Shown in pieces: positions 28,948-63,950 of a DNA stretch of 64,000 nucleotides; the first letter of the stretch is position 1; each line of letters begins with the position of its first letter. The stretch covers positions 566,501 through 630,500 of the forward strand of contig NZ_MKFI01000007.1 in NCBI RefSeq assembly GCF_001982635.1, given 5' to 3'. Source of the DNA: Bradyrhizobium mercantei (GTDB lineage: Bacteria; Pseudomonadota; Alphaproteobacteria; Rhizobiales; Xanthobacteraceae). Position numbers and translations under genes: made by a program. Below the pieces are notes generated by a model. That model did no database searches. It was not told the origin of the DNA and saw only the letters and a program-made list of their open reading frames with translations.

Positions 28948-29811
28948 TCACGATGAATGCAGGCCGAAGTCGTAGTGCAGATGGAAGAAGCGCGAGTTTC
29001 GGAGGAGGCCATCCGGCGCCTGCCCTTCCGGCATCTCGATGAACTCCCGCACCAAGCTGTCCTTGACGCCGAAGACAACGTCGGTGTCGAGATACTGGTC
29101 GCCTTCTGCGAATACGTGCGTCACCAGTTTCTGATAGCCGGACGCCGAAATCATGAAGTGGATGTGCGCCGGGCGCCACGGATGCCGCCCCTGCTTCTTC
29201 AGCATGTCTCCGACTGGGCCGTCGTGAGGAATTGGATATGCAGCCGGCTTAATGCTCCAGAAACTGAACTTCCCATCTCCATCCGTCGAGAACCTCGCCC
29301 TCATCGCTAGGCCACCAGTCTCCTCGAGTTGCTGGACGTCGTAGTAGCCGTCGCCGTCCGAATGCCAGACATCGACAATGGCGCCCCTGATCGGCGTGCC
29401 GTCTGGAGCATTTACCGTTCCCGTGACGATCAGCGGCTCACCTGCGAGACCGCCAGAGATGTCATCGCCGCGCTCCTTCTCGGGAGGCCCTTCTACGTAG
29501 AAGGGCCCAAGCACAGTCGACTCAGTGCCGCCATTGGCCGCTCCGTGATTGATAGCGTCCACGAGCATCGAGACACCGAGCGTGTCTGACAGGAGCACGA
29601 ACTCCTGGCGGGTGTCACTGCACATTTTTCCGGTATCGGTCAGGAACGCGATGCCCTTCTCCCATTCTTCGAAAGTCGGCCGCACCTCTCTGACGAATGC
29701 ATGCAAATGTCGAACCAGCGCGGCGCTGACCTGAGCCGTCCGTTTGTCGCTCGCGCCTGAAAGGCGGTCGATGACCGCGTCGGTGATCGTGATTTCGTCG
29801 AAGTTTCGCAT
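28948..29811 (-). CDS. Intradiol ring-cleavage dioxygenase, hydroxyquinol 1,2-dioxygenase type
   Basis: Fe(III) enzyme splitting hydroxyquinol (or catechol) between the two hydroxyls to give maleylacetate (or muconate). 287 aa, normal length. N-terminal helical dimer domain (about 1-100), then the catalytic beta core. Iron ligands by spacing: Tyr156 (DGYYDVQ), Tyr192 (AAYPIPHDGP), His216 and His218 (PAHIHFM). The long N-terminal domain and company with a phenol monooxygenase favour hydroxyquinol over protocatechuate. It is the last gene of module 1. The maleylacetate reductase expected after it in the pathway is broken just upstream. Confidence 0.92.
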   Translation of the reverse strand: MRNFDEITITDAVIDRLSGASDKRTAQVSAALVRHLHAFVREVRPTFEEWEKGIAFLTDTGKMCSDTRQEFVLLSDTLGVSMLVDAINHGAANGGTESTVLGPFYVEGPPEKERGDDISGGLAGEPLIVTGTVNAPDGTPIRGAIVDVWHSDGDGYYDVQQLEETGGLAMRARFSTDGDGKFSFWSIKPAAYPIPHDGPVGDMLKKQGRHPWRPAHIHFMISASGYQKLVTHVFAEGDQYLDTDVVFGVKDSLVREFIEMPEGQAPDGLLRNSRFFHLHYDFGLHSS

Positions 29812-30257: not shown

Positions 30258-31838
30258 TTACTCGGCCGCGTCGTTCATGTAGGACTTCTTAACGTCCTGG
30301 GCTTTGGCGTAGTCGGGCTGGAAGCGGACACTGGCGTAGTGGGATTTTTGCTCGGCCTCCTGAGCACGCTTGCCGAGTTCCGCCGTGTCGCCGAAACCGA
30401 GAACCTGCCGCGCCAGTTCGGTCAGCGGGCCATCGACCTGATATTCGGTTCGCTGCATCGTAAGTAGATTGATGAGGTAGAGAGGCGTGCCGTTGAACTT
30501 CTCGAACATCTCGTGGCGGTTGCCCCATTCGCTCAGGAACCGCTCACTGATCTGACGGAAGATCTTGATGCGATCGTAGGCGCTGATCTCCGCGCCGCGG
30601 AGAGCCTCGGCGAGCTTTGGACCGATGTATGGATCTTCCATCTCGCGCTTCGACGGTTGAATAACAACGCCGCGACCGCAGAAATCGATCAGCATGTTCA
30701 CCATCTTGGCCTGGTTCTCGAGATAGTAGGCACGGCCGAAATCGATGTAGATGTTGTTCGGTTTGAACAGGCCCCCGGGCGTCGCGAATCCCGTCTCTTC
30801 GGCAGCGATCATGAAGGCCCGGCAAGTCTCCCGGAACCGGATGAGCTCGGCGAGCTGGGCCGCGACGACCGGGTTGGTGCTAGTGCCCAACGACTGGGTC
30901 AGAAGCAGAGCGAGACCGACCATCAGTTCAGCGTGGACGCAGTGACGGATTTGGGTCTCGAGATGCACCCAGTCGAATTGGCGCTGCGGATACCACTTCG
31001 CGTGATCCGGGTTGCCAACATGCTGCACGCGGTCCCACGGAATCAGTACGTCATCGAAGTAGACCATCGCGTCGAGCTCGTCGCCGATGGTTGCCAGCGG
31101 ACGATCGTACGGATCTGCGTCCGGCTGTGCGTTCGACTTGCGGGCTACGACCGAAACGCCCTTGGTAGCGATCGGCACCAGCGCGTAGACGGTCTGCTCG
31201 GCAGTCTGGCCGGGGCGCCACAGGTTTCCGATAAGGAGGTGATTGACGAACGGAACGGACGTGCCGATTGCCTTCCAGCCGCGGACGAGGATACCATCGT
31301 CGCGCTCTTCGATGACCTTCAGCATTGGCGTCTCGGCCATCGCATTGTCACGGCCGCGATCGAATTGGACGTCGAGGAACATCGGCGAGATCGCCAGGTC
31401 CTGAGACGTGACCTCTTCCCACTGACGCTGAATATTGCCGGAGAGATCGCGTTTCTTGCCGCTGAAGCGCGAATTGTCAGACCAGGGCTTCTGGTCATCC
31501 ACCTGGGTGAACATAACCACATTCATGCCGGCTGGCGGCCGCGTGAAGATACCACCCTTGAAATGACGGCAGAGGAAATCGCAGTACTCGCGGCGCTTGA
31601 CTACATCTTCCTTCGACCGCGGAAGGAACCAGTGCATCGACTGACGCTTGCCCTTTTCGTCGACGAAGGTTGCTATGTCCTGATTCTTAGGGTCGAGGTG
31701 AAGATCGTAGTATTCGGCGATCGCATTCGCATACCCTTTCGTCATGGGATGCGTGGTCACGTCCTCGATCAGCTCGCCACCGACATAGACGCGGCGACCG
31801 TCTCGCAGAGATTGAAGATACTCAGCACCGGTTCTCAT
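30258..31838 (-). CDS. FADH2-dependent aromatic monooxygenase, HpaB family (module 1)
   Basis: Oxygenase component of a two-component phenol hydroxylase; uses FADH2 supplied by a separate reductase. 526 aa, normal for the family. Recognisable: MRTGAEYLQSLRDGR start, VTTHP, the FAD-contacting stretch around HVGNPDHAKWYPQRQFDWVH, and ATPGGLFKPNNIYIDFGRAYYLEN. It is about 40 percent similar by eye to the second monooxygenase at 58.4 kb, so the two are distant paralogues. ATG at 31838 has GGAG upstream. It follows the SnoaL-like gene by 22 bases. Likely substrates: 4-substituted or halogenated/nitrated phenols leading to hydroxyquinol, given the dioxygenase downstream (inference). Confidence 0.92.
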   Translation of the reverse strand: MRTGAEYLQSLRDGRRVYVGGELIEDVTTHPMTKGYANAIAEYYDLHLDPKNQDIATFVDEKGKRQSMHWFLPRSKEDVVKRREYCDFLCRHFKGGIFTRPPAGMNVVMFTQVDDQKPWSDNSRFSGKKRDLSGNIQRQWEEVTSQDLAISPMFLDVQFDRGRDNAMAETPMLKVIEERDDGILVRGWKAIGTSVPFVNHLLIGNLWRPGQTAEQTVYALVPIATKGVSVVARKSNAQPDADPYDRPLATIGDELDAMVYFDDVLIPWDRVQHVGNPDHAKWYPQRQFDWVHLETQIRHCVHAELMVGLALLLTQSLGTSTNPVVAAQLAELIRFRETCRAFMIAAEETGFATPGGLFKPNNIYIDFGRAYYLENQAKMVNMLIDFCGRGVVIQPSKREMEDPYIGPKLAEALRGAEISAYDRIKIFRQISERFLSEWGNRHEMFEKFNGTPLYLINLLTMQRTEYQVDGPLTELARQVLGFGDTAELGKRAQEAEQKSHYASVRFQPDYAKAQDVKKSYMNDAAE

Positions 31839-48566: not shown

Positions 48567-49712
48567 TCATCGCCCCGCGCTTAAGCTACCGCGTTCGCGT
48601 ACCTTGAAGGTGCGGGTGCTGACCCGGTCGAGGAGTCCAATCATGTCGCGCAAGTCGACGCTGGCTATTCCCTGAGTAATGAAGACAATCCGGGTTCGTT
48701 GGTCTGCATCCGGCCATTTTTCCAACCAGGTCATCGTGTGCAGCAGGTGCTGGACTCCTTGAATAACGGCCGGGCGCCCCGGCTCGTCGGCGATGCTTAC
48801 CAACCCTTTGACACGGAGCAGGTTAGGCCCAAGATTGTGGCTGATCCCATCCAGGAGGAACTGCAGTTCGTTACGAGACAAAGGGACCGTTCGAACCAGG
48901 ACAAAGCTTTCGATATTCTTACCGCGAAGATGATACAACGGTTCGTGATCGTGCTCGTGATGGCTATGACTGTGATCGTCGTGTTCGTCATGCAACGACG
49001 GTTCGGCGGTAGCTACCCCGAGCCATGGGCGAGGATCGGCACTCGGATCGGCGTGATCGAAACCCGGAGCAGTAAGAAGTGCCGCTAGTGCCTCCGCGGA
49101 CCAATCGATTGCGTGGACCTCCGCCGTCCGGTTGAGGCGCGCTATGCTGCTGCGTAGCGACACCTCGGTATCGCTAACGGACGGCCCGACAAGATCGAGC
49201 TTTGTAAGCCGGATCTGGTCGGCGAGTGCAATCTGCCGAAGCGCTTCGTCATGCCGTTCCAGCGTGTGACCGTAGTTAACTGCGTCGACTAGGGTAACCA
49301 CGCTTGAAACACGATAAAGGCCGTCAAGCGTGGGCTCCGATAGGAACGCCTGCAGCACCGGAGCCGGTTCGGCCAGTCCTGACGTTTCGATCACGACGTT
49401 CTCGAACGCTGGAATCCGGCCCGCCGCGCGATCGTGATACAGCGCATTCAGTGTCGCCACGAGGTCGCTGCGAACCGTGCAGCAAAGGCACCCGTTTTCC
49501 AGTACCACCACCGAGTCGTTGCTGGAGGCGACCAACTGATGGTCGATCCCGACTTCGCCGAACTCGTTTACGACAACGATGGTCCGCTCCATGCCAGGCG
49601 CCCGAAGCGCCGCGTTGATCAGTGTCGTCTTGCCGCTGCCCAGAAAGCCGGTGACGAGCGTCACCGGGATACGGGGGCGGCTTGATCGCGCGGTGTCTGA
49701 ATCGGCTGTCAT
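48567..49712 (-). CDS. CobW/COG0523 metal-chaperone GTPase
   Basis: About 381 aa G3E GTPase. GFLGSGKT (residues 22-29, P-loop), the metal motif ENGCLCC (72-78, CxCC), the switch-like VVIETSGLAEP, and the TKLDL base motif are present. A His/Asp-rich insertion (HDEHDDHSHSHHEHDHEP, about 265-285) is typical of zinc-delivering members. The C-terminal CobW_C domain follows. ATG at 49712 (MTADSDTARS) starts 20 bases after the stop of the M24 gene upstream, so they are in one operon. Likely delivers a metal ion, perhaps to that protein (see findings). Confidence 0.92.
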   Translation of the reverse strand: MTADSDTARSSRPRIPVTLVTGFLGSGKTTLINAALRAPGMERTIVVVNEFGEVGIDHQLVASSNDSVVVLENGCLCCTVRSDLVATLNALYHDRAAGRIPAFENVVIETSGLAEPAPVLQAFLSEPTLDGLYRVSSVVTLVDAVNYGHTLERHDEALRQIALADQIRLTKLDLVGPSVSDTEVSLRSSIARLNRTAEVHAIDWSAEALAALLTAPGFDHADPSADPRPWLGVATAEPSLHDEHDDHSHSHHEHDHEPLYHLRGKNIESFVLVRTVPLSRNELQFLLDGISHNLGPNLLRVKGLVSIADEPGRPAVIQGVQHLLHTMTWLEKWPDADQRTRIVFITQGIASVDLRDMIGLLDRVSTRTFKVRERGSLSAGR

Positions 49713-49731
49713 CTGGGCGGCCACACAGATC

Positions 49732-50985
49732 TCAGAACACGTGGCAGCCTGGAAGACCGCAGGAGATGAGTTTGTCCGAGGGGAAGTTCGTGATGATTTC
49801 ACATCCGGTTTTGGTCACAACGATCTCTTCCTCGATGCGGGCAGCGCCCGAGCCGTCTTCCGCACCTTTCCACGTCTCAAGGGCGAACACCATGCCTTCC
49901 TGAAGCGGAGTATTCTGGCCGCGGAAGCGCTTAGAGAAGATCGGCCGCTCCCACAGGGATAGGCCGACCCCATGGCCATATTGTAGCAGGAAGGCTTCCG
50001 CCTCATCTCGGTAGCCAAAGTCCTGTGCGTCCGGCCAGACAGCGGCCACCTCATCGGGAGTGACACCCGGTCGGATCATGTCAATGGAAGCGCTGAGCCA
50101 CTTGGAGGCCGTCTCGTACGCATCGATTTGATGCTTGTTCGGTTCGCCGCAAATGAACGTACGATAGTAGCACGTGCGATATCCGTTGTAGGAGTGCATG
50201 ATGTCGAGGAAGATCATGTCGCCGGGTTGGATCATTCGATCCGAGAACGTGTGGGAATGTGGGCGGCCGCGCGATCCCGATACGGAGTTGACGCATTCGA
50301 CGCGCTCGGAGCCCATCCTGAACAGCCGGTCATTGGCAATCGCGACGAGCTCGTTCTCCTTGGTCCCTGGGCGGATAGCACGCGCGATGTCGACATAGGT
50401 CGCATCGACCATCGCCGCCGCCATCTTTAGCAACTCGATCTCGTCTTGAGTCTTGATCTCGCGTGCGTCGAGCATTGCTTGCTGACCGTCGACGACCTCA
50501 ATGCCTTCTGCTTCGAGCGCGCGCAGCATGCCAAGCTCCATCACATCGATGCCTAGCGGCTCCTTCTCGAGGCCGTAGTGCACGAGCGCCTTCTTGATCT
50601 GCCTGGCGAAGTCGCGCTGCACGTTCATGTGCGGCGGGATCGCGCCCTGCATAGTGGTGATCGGCGCCGCGACATTGTCGGCAATCCAGGGCGAAGAGAT
50701 CCGCTTGGCCGGCGGCGCCGGATCCCAAAGGAGCGGCGCCCCCTCGACGGGGCACAGTGCATAGCGGATGAACTTGTCGCGCGCCCATTCGCCAATATGG
50801 GTGGCCGTGACATAGCGGATATTATCGAAATTGAAGCACAGCACGGCGCCAAGCCCAGCGTAGCGGATCGCCTGCTGGGCACGAGCTAGACGTGCCTTCG
50901 AGAGGCGGCTGTAATCGATGCCTTGCTCCCAATCCTTTGCCATCTGGCCCCAGGAAGCGGTCGAGTAGGGACTGTTGTATTTCAT
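49732..50985 (-). CDS. M24-fold metallohydrolase (pita-bread) with Asp-to-Cys ligand change
   Basis: 417 aa: N-terminal creatinase-like domain (about 35-170) and C-terminal pita-bread domain. By comparison with aminopeptidase P, metal ligands fall at Asp261 (FLDIM), His338 (GHGVGL), Glu370 (ALETWKG) and Glu385 (RIEEEIV). The second Asp of the usual DxxxxxxxxxxD pair is Cys272 (RTCYYRTF). Thus four of five ligands remain. Relatives include Xaa-Pro peptidases, creatinases and the DMSP lyase DddP; substrate cannot be told. ATG at 50985. First gene of an operon with the CobW GTPase, divergent from the wHTH-SBP fusion gene. Confidence 0.85.
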   Translation of the reverse strand: MKYNSPYSTASWGQMAKDWEQGIDYSRLSKARLARAQQAIRYAGLGAVLCFNFDNIRYVTATHIGEWARDKFIRYALCPVEGAPLLWDPAPPAKRISSPWIADNVAAPITTMQGAIPPHMNVQRDFARQIKKALVHYGLEKEPLGIDVMELGMLRALEAEGIEVVDGQQAMLDAREIKTQDEIELLKMAAAMVDATYVDIARAIRPGTKENELVAIANDRLFRMGSERVECVNSVSGSRGRPHSHTFSDRMIQPGDMIFLDIMHSYNGYRTCYYRTFICGEPNKHQIDAYETASKWLSASIDMIRPGVTPDEVAAVWPDAQDFGYRDEAEAFLLQYGHGVGLSLWERPIFSKRFRGQNTPLQEGMVFALETWKGAEDGSGAARIEEEIVVTKTGCEIITNFPSDKLISCGLPGCHVF

Positions 50986-51700: not shown

Positions 51701-53404
51701 ATGACGGACTACGAGCTGCTTCGCATCATCAATTTCCTTGAGCGTATTCGCGCGCCCTTCGACCAGAATATGCGTGGGGGAAGCATAGATCCAGTTTGGA
51801 ACATGGTTCTGTTCCTCATAAAGAGCCACCTGCGCGGTGATCCCGTGACGATGTCGTCCTTGGCGTCGGCGTCGAATATACCGTTCCCGAGCGCGATGCG
51901 CCGGATACATCGGCTTATCGAAGACGGTGAAATTGAGAAGCGCGCAAGAAGCAGGACCGGAAAATCATTCGTCCTGGTACCCAGCAAATCATTGAGAGCC
52001 AGTTTCGCGAAGTATGCGATCAGCGTTAAGACGCTGCTCGCGGAGACGTTCGGGCTTGGCGGCGGCGGCACCAATTCTGACGACTACTATTTCGGTGGAT
52101 CCTATATTGCGGATCAGATCATTCCGCCACTCAAGATCGTAGAGAACCGCAAGGTCTCTGGCCAGGATCTTCGATTCCTCTTGCACAACGACAACTATTT
52201 CTCGTCGATGCGCAACATGTGGACGGATTTTCGCAGCAGGCTGATGTCTCGCAGGCACTTCAATTTGCTCGCGCTTGAGGAACTCCACAAAGAGACATTT
52301 AGAAACGCATGTCGCGCATCGAGCGAATATGACATCGCAGCCATCAACATGCCGTGGCTTGGAGAAGCGGTGGCCAAGGGCGCTGTTCGTCCGCTGGATG
52401 ATTTCATCAAATCCAGCGGCATAAATCCTCTCGATTTTCACCCAAACATTTGGGCCACCGGGACTTGGAATTCGGTTCAGTATGGCGTGCCGATCTACTG
52501 TACGGTCGAAACGCTTGCCGTACGCAAGGATCTCTTCAGCGAACGTCGGCTGCAAATGCCTTCGAGCTTTCAGAGCGTGCTCGAGGCCGCCCGAGAACTG
52601 CACCAGCCCAGACGGGGGCTCAACGGAATAGTCTGGAACGCGGCCAAGGGCATGCCCATTGCACACAGTTTCATGATCTTCATGGGCTGCTGCGGTTCTC
52701 CTGTGCTGAATCTACCCACTTTCAGACCCGGCTTCGATTTTAGCAGAATGAGCCAGGAGGAGTATCGTCCCAAAGTGCTCTGTGAAGAGGGTAAGCTCGC
52801 GCTCGACTATATGCGGCAGCTCTTAGAGTTCTCGCCGCCAGACATCCTTGAGATGGACTGGGATCATGCGCTCGATCACTTCATGACCGGCGGGGCCGCC
52901 ATGGTCTATTGCTGGACGATGAGGGCTGCTCGCTTCGAGTACGACATTCGCTCCACAGTGAAGCGCAACGTCGAGTATCTGCCGCATCCTCGCGGACCCG
53001 GCGGCGCTACGGTCGGCCCCGTCGGTGGATTTCTCCTCGCAATTCCCACCAACCTTTCGCTAGAGAGGGCAAAGCTTGCGTTCGAAGCTATCTCGTGGAT
53101 GGCATCGCCGGCGGCCATGAAGGAGCACGTCAAGAACGGAATTCCGGTTGCGCCACGCTTCAGCGTCTCGGCCGACCCCGAAGCGGCAGCAACAACGCCC
53201 ATCGTTCGTATGGTAGACCGGCTTGCGCGGCAGAACAAACTTCACACCTGGTACAGGCCGCCAATTCCCGAGTACAGGTCGCTTGAGCGTATACTTGGTC
53301 AGAACATCTTTGCAGCCCTGAAGGGCGAAATGACCGATCGACAGGCTCTCGAACGCTGCCAGAACGAGATTGACCACATAATGAGAAGCGCTGGTCGTCA
53401 TTGA
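51701..53404 (+). CDS. Fusion of winged-helix DNA-binding domain and MalE-type solute-binding domain
   Basis: 567 aa, no signal peptide. Residues about 1-100 form a MarR/GntR-like winged helix: VWNMVLFLIKSHLRGDPVT, MSSLASASNIPFPSAMRRIH, LIEDGEIEKRARSRTGKSF. From about 120 to 560 it matches cluster D/SBP_bac_1 proteins: YDIAAINMPWLGEAVAKGAV, GVPIYCTVETLAVRKDLF, FMTGGAAMVYCWT, LPHPRGPGGATVGPVGGFLLAIP. Solute-binding proteins of this kind are normally exported; here it should be cytosolic and sense a ligand for the DNA-binding domain. ATG at 51701 has a weak ribosome site. Divergent from the M24-CobW operon, which it may regulate. Confidence 0.85.
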   Translation: MTDYELLRIINFLERIRAPFDQNMRGGSIDPVWNMVLFLIKSHLRGDPVTMSSLASASNIPFPSAMRRIHRLIEDGEIEKRARSRTGKSFVLVPSKSLRASFAKYAISVKTLLAETFGLGGGGTNSDDYYFGGSYIADQIIPPLKIVENRKVSGQDLRFLLHNDNYFSSMRNMWTDFRSRLMSRRHFNLLALEELHKETFRNACRASSEYDIAAINMPWLGEAVAKGAVRPLDDFIKSSGINPLDFHPNIWATGTWNSVQYGVPIYCTVETLAVRKDLFSERRLQMPSSFQSVLEAARELHQPRRGLNGIVWNAAKGMPIAHSFMIFMGCCGSPVLNLPTFRPGFDFSRMSQEEYRPKVLCEEGKLALDYMRQLLEFSPPDILEMDWDHALDHFMTGGAAMVYCWTMRAARFEYDIRSTVKRNVEYLPHPRGPGGATVGPVGGFLLAIPTNLSLERAKLAFEAISWMASPAAMKEHVKNGIPVAPRFSVSADPEAAATTPIVRMVDRLARQNKLHTWYRPPIPEYRSLERILGQNIFAALKGEMTDRQALERCQNEIDHIMRSAGRH

Positions 53405-57458: not shown

Positions 57459-58298
57459 TTAAGTTGTAGCGGCGACCCTCTGTGCGAACCTCATGGTCAA
57501 AGCATCGCCCGTTTTGACCCGAATATCGCTGCCGAGCGTGACATGGACCGTACGACGCCCAATAGATGTCGCGTTGCTGATCCTGAGCATTGCCTTCTTC
57601 CACCTATCCGTCTCGGAGATGCGTACCGCCCCCAAGTAATCTTCTTCAGGAGGGGCACACAAATTGTCGTCGAGGACGACTTGGATCTGGCTTGGCACAG
57701 CCCCCCTATTTCCTAATACAACGCCGGTCATTTCATGGACGCGATCAAGAAGGCGCGCCGCTTTGACGAGGTCGCCACGCTGAATCAACCGTCGCGCTTC
57801 CGAAGAGGAACAGTTCGGGAGGCCGCGTGGAGCGTGAATCGGCTGGGCTTCTACGGAAAAGTCGCGGCTCTTGCCAAGTTCCTTTAGGGACACTATGTCG
57901 CCCTTGCGCCCGCGGCCACAGGCAAAGTTTTCGCCTACAACAAGAATCTTCATTCCGAACCGTCGAATAAGATCGTGAGTCACGAACTCTTCAAAGGTCT
58001 CGTGTCGCCTTCGTTCATCGAATGGCAAGACGCAACAGTAATCAACGGCGCCTGATCCAGCCAGAAGGCGAAGGCGCGTTGAAACCGTGCAGATGAGCGG
58101 CGGTGCCGATGCGGGGTGGATGACAGCTCGCGGAATCGGATCAAAGGTGACGAGCACGGTCTTCAGGCCGGCGTTATCACCGAGACGTCGCAATGTGCGG
58201 AGTAGCTTCCTGTGGCCCCGATGAACGCCGTCGAAGGATCCGACGGCGACGACAGAACTAGCAAGCACGGCCACTTGTGCTCTATCAACAATTTGCAT
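57459..58298 (-). CDS. FAD synthetase-like (RibF N-terminal domain) protein
   Basis: 279 aa. FMN adenylyltransferase signature: GSFDGVHRGH (residues 20-29), a TFDPIPR segment, GENFACGRGRKGD and SSSEARRLIQRGDL. The C-terminal part (about 185-279), which in RibF is riboflavin kinase (GRxLGFPTxN), lacks those motifs, so only FMN to FAD adenylylation is expected. ATG at 58298. It is 78 bases after the monooxygenase gene on the same strand, and thus may raise FAD for the FADH2-dependent enzyme. Confidence 0.85.
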   Translation of the reverse strand: MQIVDRAQVAVLASSVVAVGSFDGVHRGHRKLLRTLRRLGDNAGLKTVLVTFDPIPRAVIHPASAPPLICTVSTRLRLLAGSGAVDYCCVLPFDERRRHETFEEFVTHDLIRRFGMKILVVGENFACGRGRKGDIVSLKELGKSRDFSVEAQPIHAPRGLPNCSSSEARRLIQRGDLVKAARLLDRVHEMTGVVLGNRGAVPSQIQVVLDDNLCAPPEEDYLGAVRISETDRWKKAMLRISNATSIGRRTVHVTLGSDIRVKTGDALTMRFAQRVAATT

Positions 58299-58376
58299 GC
58301 GATCGTCTCCTGCCGCAATCAGAGCCGGCACCGCACTGGATGTGACGGTGCCGGCTCCGTGGACTAGGAATGAAAC

Positions 58377-59921
58377 CTAGCGCGCGCCGATGGCGGCCAG
58401 CGCCGGCTTTGGCTTTTGTTGGCCGCCGTCTTGCGCCCGGGCGTAGTCGGCGGATTGAGCGTACTGGTCCTTGCCATCGAACTCGAGCCCGCACACCTTT
58501 CTCGCAAAGGCGGCGTACGAACCCGTTGCTCCCATTTCGGCACGTTGTGTAGTCAAGCTCAAGAGCGCGAACACTGGTGTGCCGTTGAAGTTCTCAAACA
58601 TGAATATACGCTGGCCCCAATCGGTCAGGAACAGATCGCGGATCACGCGCGAGATGTGGGCGCGATCCTTTGGAGCGCCTTTGGGACCCTTGTTCATCTT
58701 CTCGAACCAAGGACCGAACTTCGGGTCGTTCCATTGCGCTTCAGAAGCGGACATCAGCGGGCCGCGACCTGCCAGGTCGAGCAGTTCGTACGCCATGGCT
58801 GAAATGTTCTGGAGAAAATGGGCACGGCCCATCTGGTAAAGAAGCGTGTTGGGCTTATAGCTGCCGCCGGGCGTGACAAAGCCTTCCTGCTCGCAAGCGA
58901 GCAAGTGTGCCATCATCGTCTGATGAAATTGGACAAGCTTGGCAACGCGAGCCGCGACGGCTGGAATGCCACTTGTTCCGACGTGTTCGGTGATCAGAAT
59001 GGCAAGCCCCGCCATCAGCTCGGCACGCAGAGTTTGGCGGATCAAAACCTGGTAGTGGATCCAGTCGAAGATTCGTTGCGGATAGAGCTTCGCGTGTTCG
59101 GGGTTGCCGAGGTGAAAGACCTGTTTCCAGGGAATAAAGACGTTGTCGAACACGGTCGATGCCTCGAGCTCGTCGCCCATAGAGGCCAGCGGATGTTCAA
59201 CCGGGTCGTTCTTTACCGTGCTCTCGCGGCAAAGGACTGTCACGCCTTTCGTGTTGACCGGGATTTGAGCATAAATGACCTGCTCGCCGGGAAGGCCGGG
59301 GCGATAGAAGCAACCGATATGGATATAGTCGGCGGTGTGCAGCGCCGTAGACACTGCCTTGACACCCTCGACGATGATGCCGTCGTCATTCTTCGAGACG
59401 ACCCGGAGGTTTGGGGAATGAGCCAGAGCGTCCGGATTCGATCGATCTGCTTGCGGATCGATGAACGCGAAAGCGCAGTTCAAGTCCTTGTCTTCCGCGA
59501 GCTTTAGGAAGTCGCGGATGTTCTGTGCAATGTTTCTGCCTTCCGCGCCGATCGACTGCTTCTCCCACGGTTCCGGATCATCCAGGTAGGTGTGGAGCGG
59601 CCAGGTGTTAGCATCCGGCAACCGTCCATAGGAGGCTGCTCCCAGTTCGCGCAAGATCGTTTCGCAATAGCGCCGCTTCGCGAGGAGCTCTTCCTTATTG
59701 CGCTGAGGCTGCCACTGCCGCGATCGCCTCACGCCATCTTCGCCGACGAAGGTCATGACATCCTGCAGCTCCGGCCGGTGATGCAGGTCATAGAACTCCG
59801 CAACGCGCTTAGCGTAATCGCGCGTTAGTGGATGCGTGGCAACGTTGTCGATCTTTTCGTTTCCTACCCATACAACGCGTCCGTCGTTGAGGGCCTCCAA
59901 ATACTGTTTTCCTGTTCTCAT
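58377..59921 (-). CDS. FADH2-dependent aromatic monooxygenase, HpaB family (module 2)
   Basis: 514 aa. MRTGKQYLEALNDGRVVWVG start, NVATHPLTRDYA, HLGNPEHAKLYPQRIFDWIHY, TPGGSYKPNTLLYQMGRAHFLQN; the same order as the module 1 enzyme with many changes. ATG at 59921 (MRTGK) is set by the family; an open frame goes back to 60074. Its flavin reductase lies 34 bases upstream and the FAD-synthetase-like gene downstream. Hydroxylates a phenolic ring position, possibly with displacement of halide or nitrite, as HadA/TftD-type relatives do (family knowledge). Confidence 0.92.
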   Translation of the reverse strand: MRTGKQYLEALNDGRVVWVGNEKIDNVATHPLTRDYAKRVAEFYDLHHRPELQDVMTFVGEDGVRRSRQWQPQRNKEELLAKRRYCETILRELGAASYGRLPDANTWPLHTYLDDPEPWEKQSIGAEGRNIAQNIRDFLKLAEDKDLNCAFAFIDPQADRSNPDALAHSPNLRVVSKNDDGIIVEGVKAVSTALHTADYIHIGCFYRPGLPGEQVIYAQIPVNTKGVTVLCRESTVKNDPVEHPLASMGDELEASTVFDNVFIPWKQVFHLGNPEHAKLYPQRIFDWIHYQVLIRQTLRAELMAGLAILITEHVGTSGIPAVAARVAKLVQFHQTMMAHLLACEQEGFVTPGGSYKPNTLLYQMGRAHFLQNISAMAYELLDLAGRGPLMSASEAQWNDPKFGPWFEKMNKGPKGAPKDRAHISRVIRDLFLTDWGQRIFMFENFNGTPVFALLSLTTQRAEMGATGSYAAFARKVCGLEFDGKDQYAQSADYARAQDGGQQKPKPALAAIGAR

Positions 59922-59955
59922 TCTTTCAATCCTTGGTTGGGTGGAGGTTTCAGGT

Positions 59956-60495
59956 TTAGTCCGCCAGCGACTTTGTCGTCGCGTACGTTCTTCGGTGATA
60001 GATGAGGGGCTCGAGCTTCTCCGAACGCGTCTCGGCAACGACTTCAGCGAAGATGACCAGGTGAGATCCAACATCGAGGGTATTGACGATGGTACAGTCG
60101 AAGGACACCAACGCGTCTGTGCGACACGGGGACCCCGTCACCAGGGCCTGCCAGCCGTCTGGCTCGAAACGCTCTTCCATCGATACAGACCCGACGCCGG
60201 CAAATATCTGAGATACTGGCGCCTGATCCGAGGCGAGCCAGTTTACGGAGAGCACACCATTATTCTTGATAATGCCTGCGGCGTAACTCTTCCTGTTTAC
60301 GCACAGAAGTATTGTTGACGGCTGATCGCAAACCGAACAGACCGCGGAACATGTAAGTCCCGCAAGCCCATGCGGGCCGTTTGTCGCCACCACGGTAACC
60401 GCAGTGGCGGTTCTCGAGAGCGCATCCCGAAAATCAAGCGATGCGATAGTCTCCGGGCATTCGGTTTGCCGGCCGATCTTCTCGACAGTGTTCAT
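59956..60495 (-). CDS. NAD(P)H:flavin reductase, HpaC/RutF-like (module 2)
   Basis: 179 aa. FRDALSRTATAVTVVATNG and HGLAGLTCSAVCSVCDQPSTILLCVN define the domain, with NGVLSVNWLASDQ and PLIYHRRTY at the end. ATG at 60495 (MNTVEKIGRQTE) is preferred over that at 60531. First gene of module 2; supplies FADH2 to the monooxygenase 34 bases downstream. Confidence 0.92.
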   Translation of the reverse strand: MNTVEKIGRQTECPETIASLDFRDALSRTATAVTVVATNGPHGLAGLTCSAVCSVCDQPSTILLCVNRKSYAAGIIKNNGVLSVNWLASDQAPVSQIFAGVGSVSMEERFEPDGWQALVTGSPCRTDALVSFDCTIVNTLDVGSHLVIFAEVVAETRSEKLEPLIYHRRTYATTKSLAD

Positions 60496-61341: not shown

Positions 61342-62346
61342 TCACAAGCCCTCCGCTGGGCTCCGCTTGAATCGGTTCCGATCATGCGAGTGATGGTAGC
61401 CGACAGCTGGGCCGAGCGGCCAGATTCCCGTTGGATTTACCCGCCGCTGACTTCCATAGTAGTGCTTCTTTATGTGATCGAAGTTTACGGTCGCGTCTAC
61501 CCCAGGCAGCTGATACAGGTCGCGCATGTAGTTAGACAGGTTCGGGTAATCGGCGATACGCCGCAGATTACATTTGAAGTGGCTGTAATAAACAACGTCG
61601 AAACGGACGAGTGTGGGGAACAGCCGCCAGTCGGCTTCGGTCATGCGGTCGCCGAGCAGAAAGCGATTTAGCGAAAGGCGCTGCTCGAGTTCGTCGAGGG
61701 CGCCGAACAACCCCCGGCACGCTTCCTCATAAGCCTCCTGCGCTGTCGCAAATCCGGCTCGATAGACGCCGTTGTTGATGTATTGATAGACGAGCTCATT
61801 GACCGCTTCGAGTGCCTCTCGCAGGTCGGCCGGACAGTAGTCAGTTTGTTCGTTCGTCAAATTGGCGAAAGACGAATTGAACATTCGAATGATTTCCGAC
61901 GACTCGTTGCTCACGATCCTTTTGCGTTTCTTGTCCCACAAGACCGGCACAGTGACACGCCCGGTGTGCTTGGGCTCACTCAATACGTAGATTTCAGACA
62001 GCCTTCTCGCGTTGTTGACCGGATCTCCGCTTGAGCCCTCTTCAGTGTCGAACGTCCAGCCCGTTTCGCCCATGTGCCAGGAAACGGTCGACATCGAGAT
62101 CAGTTGCTCAAGCCGCTTGAGATGCCGGAATATGATGGTCCGATGAGCCCAAGGACAAGCCAGCGACACATACAGATGGTACCGATCGGGTTCAGCGACG
62201 AAGCCGCCCTCGCCGGACGGCCCTGGGGAGCCATCGAACGTAATCCAATTCCGGAACTTCGTCGTCGGCCTCCTGAACCGGCCGGTCGGCGTCTGCGCTC
62301 GGTCGGGACTATCGTCGGTCCAAATGCCATCGACAAGAAGTCCCAT
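61342..62346 (-). CDS. Glutathionyl-hydroquinone reductase (omega-class GST, PcpF/YqjG-like)
   Basis: 334 aa. N-terminal long thioredoxin-fold with the catalytic Cys in LACPWAHRT (about residue 65), preceded by FRRPTTKFRNWI; later SNESSEIIRMFN and the C-terminal DLREALEAVNELVYQYINNGVYRAG helix region. These enzymes reduce glutathionyl-hydroquinones back to hydroquinone with glutathione, as PcpF does in pentachlorophenol breakdown. ATG at 62346 (MGLLVDG). Downstream of the NmrA gene by 90 bases; a fitting partner for phenol-oxidising modules. Confidence 0.92.
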   Translation of the reverse strand: MGLLVDGIWTDDSPDRAQTPTGRFRRPTTKFRNWITFDGSPGPSGEGGFVAEPDRYHLYVSLACPWAHRTIIFRHLKRLEQLISMSTVSWHMGETGWTFDTEEGSSGDPVNNARRLSEIYVLSEPKHTGRVTVPVLWDKKRKRIVSNESSEIIRMFNSSFANLTNEQTDYCPADLREALEAVNELVYQYINNGVYRAGFATAQEAYEEACRGLFGALDELEQRLSLNRFLLGDRMTEADWRLFPTLVRFDVVYYSHFKCNLRRIADYPNLSNYMRDLYQLPGVDATVNFDHIKKHYYGSQRRVNPTGIWPLGPAVGYHHSHDRNRFKRSPAEGL

Positions 62347-62436
62347 CGGTCGTCTCCACAATTTGCCGTCCTTAAGATTGCGGGTCGCTGCCGGAGCAGC
62401 GACCCGCGAACACTGCAGCCCCGTGTGACCGGCGGC

Positions 62437-63309
62437 TTAACTGAACATCGCCTTGTAGTCCTGGACAAACTGCTTCGTGGTCCGCGGCGCACGACCCACA
62501 ATATCTTTGATCGGCTGTGTATTCTCCTCGGACAACCCACCCGATGCGCCGAGCTTGGCGATCGCGAGCATATGGCCGACAAGCCAATCCGGCATGTTCT
62601 TCGCCCGCATATTGGTCTCAGCCGCCTCGAGTGAGGCTGGAATGTAGATGATCTGCTTACCGAGCACTTCAGCGAAGACCTGCGCGAATTCGCCGTAGGT
62701 CGATTGCGCACCGGTGAACTCGTAGGTCTTGCCGACATGCTTGTCCGGCTTCTGTAGAATTCGTGCGGCCACCGCACCAGTGTCACGCACGTCGATGAAA
62801 GGCAACTTCAGATCCTTTGCAAACGGCATCACCATCTTGCCATCGGCCTTGATCATGCCAGCAGCCGCGAAGGTGTTCTGCATGAACAGGCCTGGCCGAA
62901 GCAGGCACCAGCTAATGCCGCTCTTCTCCAGGGCTTCCTCGACCGTGTGGTGACCACGACCGACGATCGATTCAACATTCGGGCCCACCACCGCGCGGCC
63001 ACCGGAGACCTTCAGAACGAACTTCACGTCAGCCGATTTCGCCGCTTCGATGATGTTGATCTGCTGCACATCCGACTTCGGATTGTGACCTGTTACGATC
63101 ATCACGCGATCGACGTTGCTAAATGCTGCCTGCAACGAAGCTCGGTCATCGAGATCGGCCACAGCGATGTCGACATCCGATCCGAGACCCTGGCGGGCCT
63201 TATCCGCATTTCGCACGACGCAGAGAGGCTTCTCTCCGATCGATTGGAGTTCCTTGACCGTAGCGCTCCCAGTATTTCCGGTTGCACCAACTACCGCAAT
63301 CTTAGCCAT
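62437..63309 (-). CDS. NmrA-like NAD(P)-binding reductase/epimerase
   Basis: 290 aa. MAKIAVVGATGNTGSATVKEL (GATGNTG) cofactor loop; RVMIVTGHNP; ISWCLLRPGLFMQNTFA; PFIDVRDTGAVAARIL as in NmrA/QorB-type quinone reductases. QorB-like activity on quinones would suit the neighbours. ATG at 63309 (MAKIAVV); the frame continues to 63414 without signal. 90 bases before the GST gene and 47 bases after the AhpD-like gene. Confidence 0.9.
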   Translation of the reverse strand: MAKIAVVGATGNTGSATVKELQSIGEKPLCVVRNADKARQGLGSDVDIAVADLDDRASLQAAFSNVDRVMIVTGHNPKSDVQQINIIEAAKSADVKFVLKVSGGRAVVGPNVESIVGRGHHTVEEALEKSGISWCLLRPGLFMQNTFAAAGMIKADGKMVMPFAKDLKLPFIDVRDTGAVAARILQKPDKHVGKTYEFTGAQSTYGEFAQVFAEVLGKQIIYIPASLEAAETNMRAKNMPDWLVGHMLAIAKLGASGGLSEENTQPIKDIVGRAPRTTKQFVQDYKAMFS

Positions 63310-63356
63310 TGTATGATTCCTTGTGCTTGTCTGTAACTTTGACCCGACGGATCGGG

Positions 63357-63950
63357 TTATTCCGCGGCCTGGACCGCGGCGCGCATTTTCTGCAACCGCG
63401 GCTGAATAGTGCACGCCTCGTCCCAGCTCCTCATGCGCAACGACCTGGCGAATTTTCCGACGCCGTCCGTTTCTGCACAGAGCAGCGCCAACTCGATGAT
63501 TTCCTCTTCGGAGAAATGCTTCTTCAAGTCGTCATAGACTTCATCGCTATCGATAGCGTCGTCACTCGACTTGAACAGCGTTGCGAACCTGAGCGCCGCA
63601 CGTTCACGCTCGTCGAACAACGGACTGGTTTCGAAGTCGATGGTTGCCATCAGCTTCTCTTCGGTCAGGCCGCTCTCGTAAGCAATGCGGGCCTTGACGC
63701 TCGAGCAGTAACTGCAGCCGTGTTTCAAGGAAATGAGAACGCGGCACATTTCCTTGAGCGCAACGGGGACGATGCCACCGTTGAGCAATTCATTCCATTG
63801 CCGCAGCCAATTTCGTCCCGCCTCGGATCGCGCGTAGATTTGTGCGCAAAGTGGATCCGGGGCACCGTTGTGCTGAGCGCTTTGAATAAGCAATCGCTGG
63901 GTGCCAGTCGCCTCCTCCATTGTGAGAGGGCGAAGTCGCGGTTCAGACAT
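63357..63950 (-). CDS. AhpD-like/carboxymuconolactone decarboxylase-family protein
   Basis: 197 aa. CSYCSSVKARIAYESG carries the two Cys (CxxC) typical of the AhpD active site, and the flanking VALKEMCRVLISLKHG is the usual helix. In AhpD the CxxC pair is redox active with a nearby His; that His is not in its usual place here (K in SSVKAR). It opens the operon with NmrA- and GST-type genes. ATG at 63950; GGAG lies upstream near 63960. Confidence 0.85.
   Translation of the reverse strand: MSEPRLRPLTMEEATGTQRLLIQSAQHNGAPDPLCAQIYARSEAGRNWLRQWNELLNGGIVPVALKEMCRVLISLKHGCSYCSSVKARIAYESGLTEEKLMATIDFETSPLFDERERAALRFATLFKSSDDAIDSDEVYDDLKKHFSEEEIIELALLCAETDGVGKFARSLRMRSWDEACTIQPRLQKMRAAVQAAE

Follow-up and report, generated by a model that had tools for sequence, protein, structure and literature searches.

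Among described systems, ZNG1 and METAP1 come close to the gene pair reported here: a COG0523 GTPase with a CxCC motif and a CobW_C domain acts there with a client of the M24 fold (extracts of PMC10642216). Our pair lies in a window of 64,000 nucleotides from Bradyrhizobium mercantei (the whole stretch of DNA analysed; contig NZ_MKFI01000007.1) and joins an M24-fold protein to a COG0523/CobW-type GTPase encoded just downstream. The two are a conserved unit, not a chance neighborhood, and what accompanies the GTPase across genomes is a C-terminal CGLPGC tail on the M24 protein rather than the Cys found at one of its metal-ligand positions. METAP1 has a Cys-rich end outside its catalytic core, and the docking motif of ZNG1 is CPELVPI, which does not occur in the translated window GTPase. 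The putative client here further differs from METAP1 in that it is not a methionine aminopeptidase, carries a predicted Cys ligand together with the CGLPGC tail, and stands in a catabolic setting.

Fe-type nitrile hydratase, another point of comparison, has Cys ligands at its metal. Its activator Nha3/P47K resembles the GTPase described here in belonging to a COG0523 subfamily that is restricted to the genes of one metal enzyme, although the fold and reaction of that client are unrelated (excerpts of PMC2770081). One sentence of the same source (Haas 2009) places a gene of the creatinase type close to a COG0523 gene of subfamily 5; the setting there differs in comprising znuABC, Zur and WD40 genes, and the excerpts mention no Cys site, tail or ring cleavage. 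More generally, each COG0523 subfamily is considered to have partners of its own (PMC2770081, in extracts), and the clients of many of these GTPases are unknown (PMC9164220, in extracts). A literature search, which did not cover most subscription papers, returned no description of an M24-CobW pair, of the tail or of a role in ring cleavage beyond the 'creatinase' sentence in the excerpts of PMC2770081. The two genes and their motifs are as follows.

49732 to 50985, minus strand: M24-fold protein, 417 residues (Pfam PF00557, 134.6 bits, domain covered over its whole length; no curated peptidase family reached)
50170 to 50172, minus strand: codon of Cys272, which aligns with the second of the two metal-binding Asp residues in M24 enzymes
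49744 to 49761, minus strand: C-terminal CGLPGC tail (C409, C414), the mark of the GTPase-associated subclade (motif conservation)
48567 to 49712, minus strand: COG0523/CobW-type G3E GTPase, 381 residues from its ATG (PF02492, PF07683)
49626 to 49640, minus strand: P-loop GSGKT of the GTPase (motif in the translation)
49479 to 49490, minus strand: metal motif CLCC (CxCC type) of the GTPase; all 52 aligned rows keep its three Cys
48927 to 48998, minus strand: His-rich loop at the junction of the GTPase domain and CobW_C (9 His in 24 residues)

In HMMER alignments to solved M24 enzymes, the site residues of the window protein are Asp261, Cys272, His338, Glu370 and Glu385. The five ligands of M24 metallopeptidases (Asp, Asp, His, Glu, Glu) thus recur with Cys272 in place of the second Asp, as a sequence-only reading of this DNA had proposed. 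The second Asp of PepE (4ege, SDSTRTY) and of DddP (4s00, VDISRTW) aligns to Cys272. The spacing from Asp261 to Cys272 differs by one residue from that in 4ege and is identical to the spacing in two M24 paralogues of the same genome (loci L001 and L004), both with Asp at the second position; this comparison leaves out L002, for which the reading frame chosen was not the right one, and L005, which is without most of the ligands. The predicted placement of Cys272 in the metal site rests on these alignments and not on a structure model.

Foldseek matched the M24 fold to 4b28 with an E value of 6.6e-20, and the top fold matches are dimethylsulfoniopropionate (DMSP) lyases of the DddP type (4b28 and 4s01, 20–22% identity), with creatinase also among the structural matches. 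Rather than a peptidase, the M24 protein is probably a lyase or hydrolase akin to DddP, creatinase or ectoine hydrolase. Its solved sequence relatives include PepE and prolidases, and many plasmid homologues carry the annotation 'Xaa-Pro peptidase family protein'. DddP, itself a non-peptidase M24 enzyme, is the best NCBIfam match; membership in that family (NF043017) was rejected at 114.4 bits against a cut-off of 600, and DddP has Asp, not Cys, at the second position. Methionine aminopeptidase (TIGR00500) was likewise rejected, at 67 bits against 171.35, and the PepQ equivalog was matched with 93 bits against a cut-off of 630.

The sequence hallmarks of COG0523 are all present in the GTPase, namely the GSGKT P-loop with the cobW domain (PF02492, 158.6 bits, cut-off 20.7), CxCC and CobW_C (PF07683, 66.7 bits, cut-off 22). 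Its longest open reading frame begins at a GTG (49802), but translation more likely starts from the ATG at 49712, 19 bases past the M24 stop. A CobW GTPase with GKT, CLCC and a His-rich loop just downstream of the M24 gene, as the sequence-only reading described it, is therefore borne out. The loop varies in length among relatives and is short or absent in some. The closest solved structure is YjiA. YeiR and YjiA are reported to prefer Zn whereas CobW takes Co (excerpts of PMC7895991); the earlier label 'zinc-type' is a putative assignment by family.

To place the pair among its relatives, we scanned 84,980 species genomes for sequence patterns and obtained 137 relatives of the M24 protein, of which the best 80 (70–95% identical) were analysed. 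The scan relied on two peptide patterns from the close clade, neither covering the tail or the Cys, so the 80 loci are a chosen rather than a random sample of Cys-type M24 proteins. All 80 carry the CGLPGC tail, which is invariant in 79 aligned rows. The GTPase is present in 71 of the 80 genomes and lies in the flank of 64 M24 loci, within 2 kb in 56 and on the same strand at most 400 bp downstream in 41; from 39 matches in 59.7 Mb, a count that takes in the copies of the pairs themselves, chance would give about 0.011 CobW genes per 17 kb. Other copies occur on the same contig at 9 kb (L115) and 14 kb (L126) from the M24 gene, elsewhere in the genome (L102, L108, L128, L129), or as a partial gene at a contig end, below the stricter limit of the flank search and counted among the 71 (L093). 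The search for adjacency across genomes that the sequence-only reading had suggested thus came out in favor of the pairing.

For comparison, we read 32 homologous loci outside the window's clade, which brings the set to 112; 28 come from genomes of the host's family and four from plasmids (Paenarthrobacter, Phaeobacter, Rhodococcus and Halorussus). The CGLPGC tail is absent from all 32, the one loose-pattern match, in L049, not being at the M24 end. Cys occupies the second ligand position in 112 of 112 loci: the D/C/H/E/E set is complete in 80/80 tail-bearing proteins, and the tail-less ones have Asp/Cys/His/Glu/Glu (DCHEE) in 31 cases and Asn/Cys/His/Glu/Glu (NCHEE) in one. A CobW gene is nevertheless missing from the flank of 31 of the 32 tail-less loci. 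The exception (L070, 1.3 kb off) has a GTPase whose long branch in the tree does not join the subfamily of the pair. The tail-less loci span 9.2 to 19.3 kb, some with little DNA on one side, so that an unlinked GTPase would be missed there.

We therefore rejected Cys272 as the link to the GTPase. By alignment, the Cys is old and belongs to this branch of enzymes as such; it is no adaptation to the GTPase. The sequence-only reading had expected the Cys to be conserved together with the GTPase and had stated that Cys-bearing homologues found mainly without it would speak against the idea; for the Cys, this is what the loci show. Its proposal of a client–chaperone pair keeps the conserved M24–GTPase unit, seen in 64 of 80 loci against about 1% expected, and loses the Cys as the connecting feature.

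Three observations concern the Cys-type family at large. L049, the most distant member read, is the protein with Asn for the first Asp besides the Cys, and its site may be reduced further. A haloarchaeal plasmid (L079, Halorussus aquaticus) encodes a Cys-type M24 protein with Asp/Cys/His/Glu/Glu and no CobW gene in its flank. A second Cys-type branch (L042–L046), about 38% identical, has neighbors in several loci that point to another pathway, presumably encoding PEP-synthase-like (phosphoenolpyruvate), hydroxyacid-dehydrogenase-like, HisD-like and cyclase-like proteins.

The host's family gives the same picture at closer range. M24 homologues at 1e-40 or better occur in 104 of its 296 genomes, while the tail-bearing form and the GTPase both occur in the same 13. 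The GTPase is at least 54% identical over most of its length (at least 415 bits) in 11 of these; one of the other two holds it in pieces (G111) and the other as a 160-residue piece at a contig end (G257). The best GTPases of the remaining family genomes reach 290 bits, with at most six candidates scored per genome. Five of the 13 genomes also hold tail-less M24 paralogues, and the six loci concerned (L050–L055) show no CobW gene.

In a GTPase tree of 89 rows, 54 of the 55 rows labelled as M24 neighbors fall into one clade of 68 rows (support 100/99), which lies apart from the other COG0523 copies of the same genomes. The 14 further rows of this clade comprise linked copies recovered again by the whole-genome search (L180, L181, L185, L196, L197, L202), copies 8–14 kb from the M24 gene (L161, L162, L165), unlinked copies (L160, L163, L164, L167) and L192, a second copy on a long branch. 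Long branches in this tree include L070, L141, L192, L199 and L203, and L141 and L192 may be grouped together falsely. In the M24 tree, the tail-bearing rows (46: 45 drawn at random from the 80, and the window) form one side of a branch with an SH-aLRT support of 99. The distribution of tail and GTPase is one of a single origin plus losses; Fisher values of 6e-23 and 9e-15 ignore this kinship and are not relied on.

The surroundings of the pair point to an oxidative resorcinol/hydroxyhydroquinone pathway, because they combine a molybdoenzyme of the resorcinol-hydroxylase type, a thiamine-type E1/E2/E3 complex and the plasmid of Aromatoleum anaerobium LuFRes1. Gene calls were codon-scored, which still misses some genes; longest-frame calls were misleading in GC-rich loci. 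The commonest other neighbors in the 80 tail-bearing loci encode a 3-hydroxyisobutyrate-dehydrogenase-like (HIBADH-like) protein (53), a thiamine-type E1 (52), an E2 (46) and an aldehyde dehydrogenase (20). Near the 32 tail-less genes, E1 and E2 were each found four times and the HIBADH-like gene 16 times. The four tail-less loci with E1/E2 (L038, L040, L053, L077) have no CobW gene in the flank; the GTPase therefore does not follow the E1/E2 module alone. A large molybdoenzyme lies in the flank of 12 of the 80 loci, and a representative matches pyrogallol hydroxytransferase (4v4c) at 2.4e-285. Relatives of it (1e-60 or better) were found in 13 of 20 tail-bearing genomes tested, A. anaerobium included, and not in the other seven (Mesorhizobium L080, L082 and L083, Sphingomonas L107, Sphingobium L109, the Phenylobacterium-labelled L095, and L139).

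A further parallel is with the anaerobic resorcinol pathway of Azoarcus (Aromatoleum) anaerobius. Its strain LuFRes1 (L118) carries the pair on plasmid pLuFRes1, where about 30 kb hold E1/E2, OYE, M24, HIBADH-like, aldehyde dehydrogenase and GTPase genes, sigma-54 regulators and RhLS-type genes; the GTPase gene has an MFS gene on one side and other pathway genes on the other. RhL is listed as the resorcinol hydroxylase of this organism (PMC10100899, in extracts, citing Darley 2007), and the route is described as continuing by oxidation and then hydrolytic cleavage (PMC10470551, in extracts). The window's genome differs in having no close RhL (best match 32%), and its version of the pathway is therefore probably aerobic and fed by monooxygenases.

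On balance, and with some reserve, we favor the view that the M24 protein is a metal-dependent enzyme and the COG0523 GTPase a metallochaperone dedicated to it, both acting within an oxidative ring-cleavage module for resorcinol- or hydroxyhydroquinone-type compounds. In its GTP state, the GTPase would bind a divalent metal through CLCC, and in members that have the His-rich loop this would act as a metal store. The GTPase would then meet the newly made M24 protein. Contact would probably be made by the CGLPGC tail, the best candidate for the docking site because it is the tail, and not the Cys, that tracks the GTPase. GTP hydrolysis would hand the metal to Asp261, Cys272, His338, Glu370 and Glu385, and the loaded enzyme, as a hydrolase or a lyase, may take for its substrate a quinone or a ring-opened intermediate produced by the neighboring thiamine-dependent E1/E2/E3 complex. 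This scheme starts from what is directly supported, namely the Cys aligned at a ligand position, the linkage and co-occurrence of the genes, the association of tail and GTPase and the pathway-like surroundings; from these we infer metal transfer, tail docking, the metal and the reaction.

Several observations weigh against this view. The active-site segments of an AlphaFold model of the M24 protein, built from 79 rows that are 70–95% identical, have a predicted confidence (pLDDT) below 50. Nine of the 80 tail-bearing genomes lack a subfamily GTPase: seven (L137–L140, L149, L155, L157) have no match at 1e-25, and L119 and L120 hold only COG0523 copies outside the pair's subfamily. Some of the nine are incomplete assemblies; L149 is a 5.1 Mb record titled 'chromosome'. 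The GTPase is thus not present wherever the candidate client occurs, and dependence on it is not absolute. Seven of the 71 GTPase copies (L093, L098, L099, L116, L131, L150, L151) are partial or split and stand outside the tree, so that their membership in the subfamily is assumed. The gene lies 3.2–4.3 kb from the M24 gene in L118, L122, L123, L159 and L086 and 7.5 kb from it in L095, and it is upstream in L095, L141 and L144. As E1 and E2 are commoner in tail-bearing loci (52 and 46 of 80) than in tail-less ones (4 and 4 of 32), the pathway partly tracks the tail; and since the tail clade is single, tail and GTPase cannot be separated from anything else inherited there.

The wider spacing in several loci (3–4 kb), the 14 kb in L126 and the position in L118 among other pathway genes would also suit a GTPase that serves the whole pathway or another metalloenzyme, such as a cupin, a VOC protein or the molybdoenzyme, with the M24 gene merely its usual neighbor. 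The enrichment of E1/E2 in tail-bearing loci fits this as well, and COG0523 targets are considered diverse (PMC2770081, in excerpts). We regard this as possible but clearly the less probable account, given that the GTPase follows directly behind the M24 gene in 41 of 80 loci, that M24 protein and subfamily GTPase are retained in genomes where the molybdoenzyme was not found (L080, L082, L083, L107, L109, L095), and that the E1/E2 module occurs without the GTPase in all four loci where it accompanies a tail-less M24 protein.

Creatinase is a metal-free enzyme of the M24 fold. Its presence among the structural matches raises the question of whether the M24 protein is a metalloenzyme at all: Cys272 could serve as a nucleophile or as a thiol that reacts with quinones, the protein could be creatinase-like or use its thiol for redox or structural purposes, and the GTPase could belong to unrelated metal housekeeping. 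We consider this unlikely, as 80/80 tail-bearing and 31/32 tail-less loci conserve the remaining four ligands, which is unexpected in a metal-free protein, and the GTPase forms a distinct subfamily rather than a general copy. Even less credible is an ordinary Xaa-Pro peptidase accompanied by a zinc-starvation GTPase, the picture suggested by automatic annotation of the plasmid homologues, by the fold and by the kinship to PepE and prolidases; the scores far below the PepQ and methionine aminopeptidase cut-offs, the replaced second Asp, the catabolic neighbors and the DddP lyases as best fold matches all oppose it.

The favored view of a metal-dependent M24 enzyme with its own metallochaperone can be taken further, to a more specific proposal that we put forward as speculative and rather unlikely in its full form: a COG0523 subfamily with one client, docked on a C-terminal CX4C tail, loads a thiolate-ligated metal, and the client is a missing hydrolase of the oxidative resorcinol route. 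Further gene roles in the resorcinol pathway are reportedly given by Darley 2007 and Molina-Fuentes 2015, with malate and acetate said to be the products. On paper, the thiamine/lipoyl complex would convert 2-hydroxybenzoquinone (C6H4O3) and 2 H2O to maleylacetate (C6H6O5) and 2 [H], and maleylacetate and 2 H2O would yield malate and acetate, the M24 enzyme performing a metal-dependent C–C hydrolysis. The sums balance and, as chemistry on paper, leave room for an M24 enzyme that hydrolyses maleylacetate, or a beta-oxo acid related to it, with malate and acetate as products. If true, this would be a carbon–carbon hydrolase on the M24 fold that is matured by a GTPase.

The window holds further genes of a catabolic kind around the pair.

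28948 to 29811, minus strand: intradiol dioxygenase (Dioxygenase_N and C domains), which we take to be of the hydroxyquinol type
30258 to 31838, minus strand: second HpaB-family monooxygenase (domain match)
51701 to 53404, plus strand: divergent gene with a weak MarR-like helix-turn-helix (MarR_2, 16.7 bits, cut-off 27) and a solute-binding-protein domain (SBP_bac_1, 72 bits), a possible regulator
58377 to 60074, minus strand: HpaB-family monooxygenase (domain match)
61342 to 62361, minus strand: glutathione transferase (GST domains), presumably glutathionyl-hydroquinone-reductase-like; it shares 54% identity with the gene that follows the RhLS-type genes of pLuFRes1
62437 to 63414, minus strand: NmrA-like NAD(P)-binding protein (PF05368, 104.5 bits)

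Beyond the window end, at 1.9–9.9 kb on the same contig and strand (L232, 3380–11428), follow HIBADH-like, E3, E2, aldehyde dehydrogenase, E1b and E1a genes, the same kinds as are seen beside other copies of the pair. Homologues of the NmrA-like gene stand beside other copies as well (54–60% in the loci of three close-clade genomes, 43% in L141), and a homologue of the divergent gene lies near the M24 gene in 9 of the 80 tail-bearing loci and, at 37%, in Phaeobacter L077. No homologue of the intradiol dioxygenase was found in the other loci searched, and the pLuFRes1 homologue of the glutathione transferase matched nothing in the 80 tail-bearing flanks (0/80), so that this link is not general. 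The solute-binding domain of the divergent gene is of the extracellular type; a periplasmic-binding fold perhaps serves here as a DNA-binding sensor. A lone FAD-synthetase-like protein (57459–58331) adjoins the HpaB gene and perhaps supplies flavin to the monooxygenases.

The region from about 28 kb is likely an acquired catabolic island, because the GC content falls there from 0.64–0.68 to 0.56–0.61 and stays low up to the window end (64000), the nearest M24 relatives, among the best 80 of 137, are Mesorhizobium proteins at 93–95% identity, and the tail-bearing M24 gene is absent from 26 other genomes of the host's genus in the family sample.

The pair thus adds a branch of the M24 fold with Cys in place of a canonical metal ligand, found from Proteobacteria to a haloarchaeon, and a testable enzyme candidate for ring fission in the oxidative resorcinol/hydroxyhydroquinone pathway. 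It also provides comparisons built in by nature, between tail-bearing and tail-less M24 copies within one genome and between lineages with and without the GTPase. For the COG0523 family, it offers a subfamily from bacteria, partly in named isolates, for which a single candidate client stands out, and with it a putative metal-chaperone and client pair that can be put to the test.

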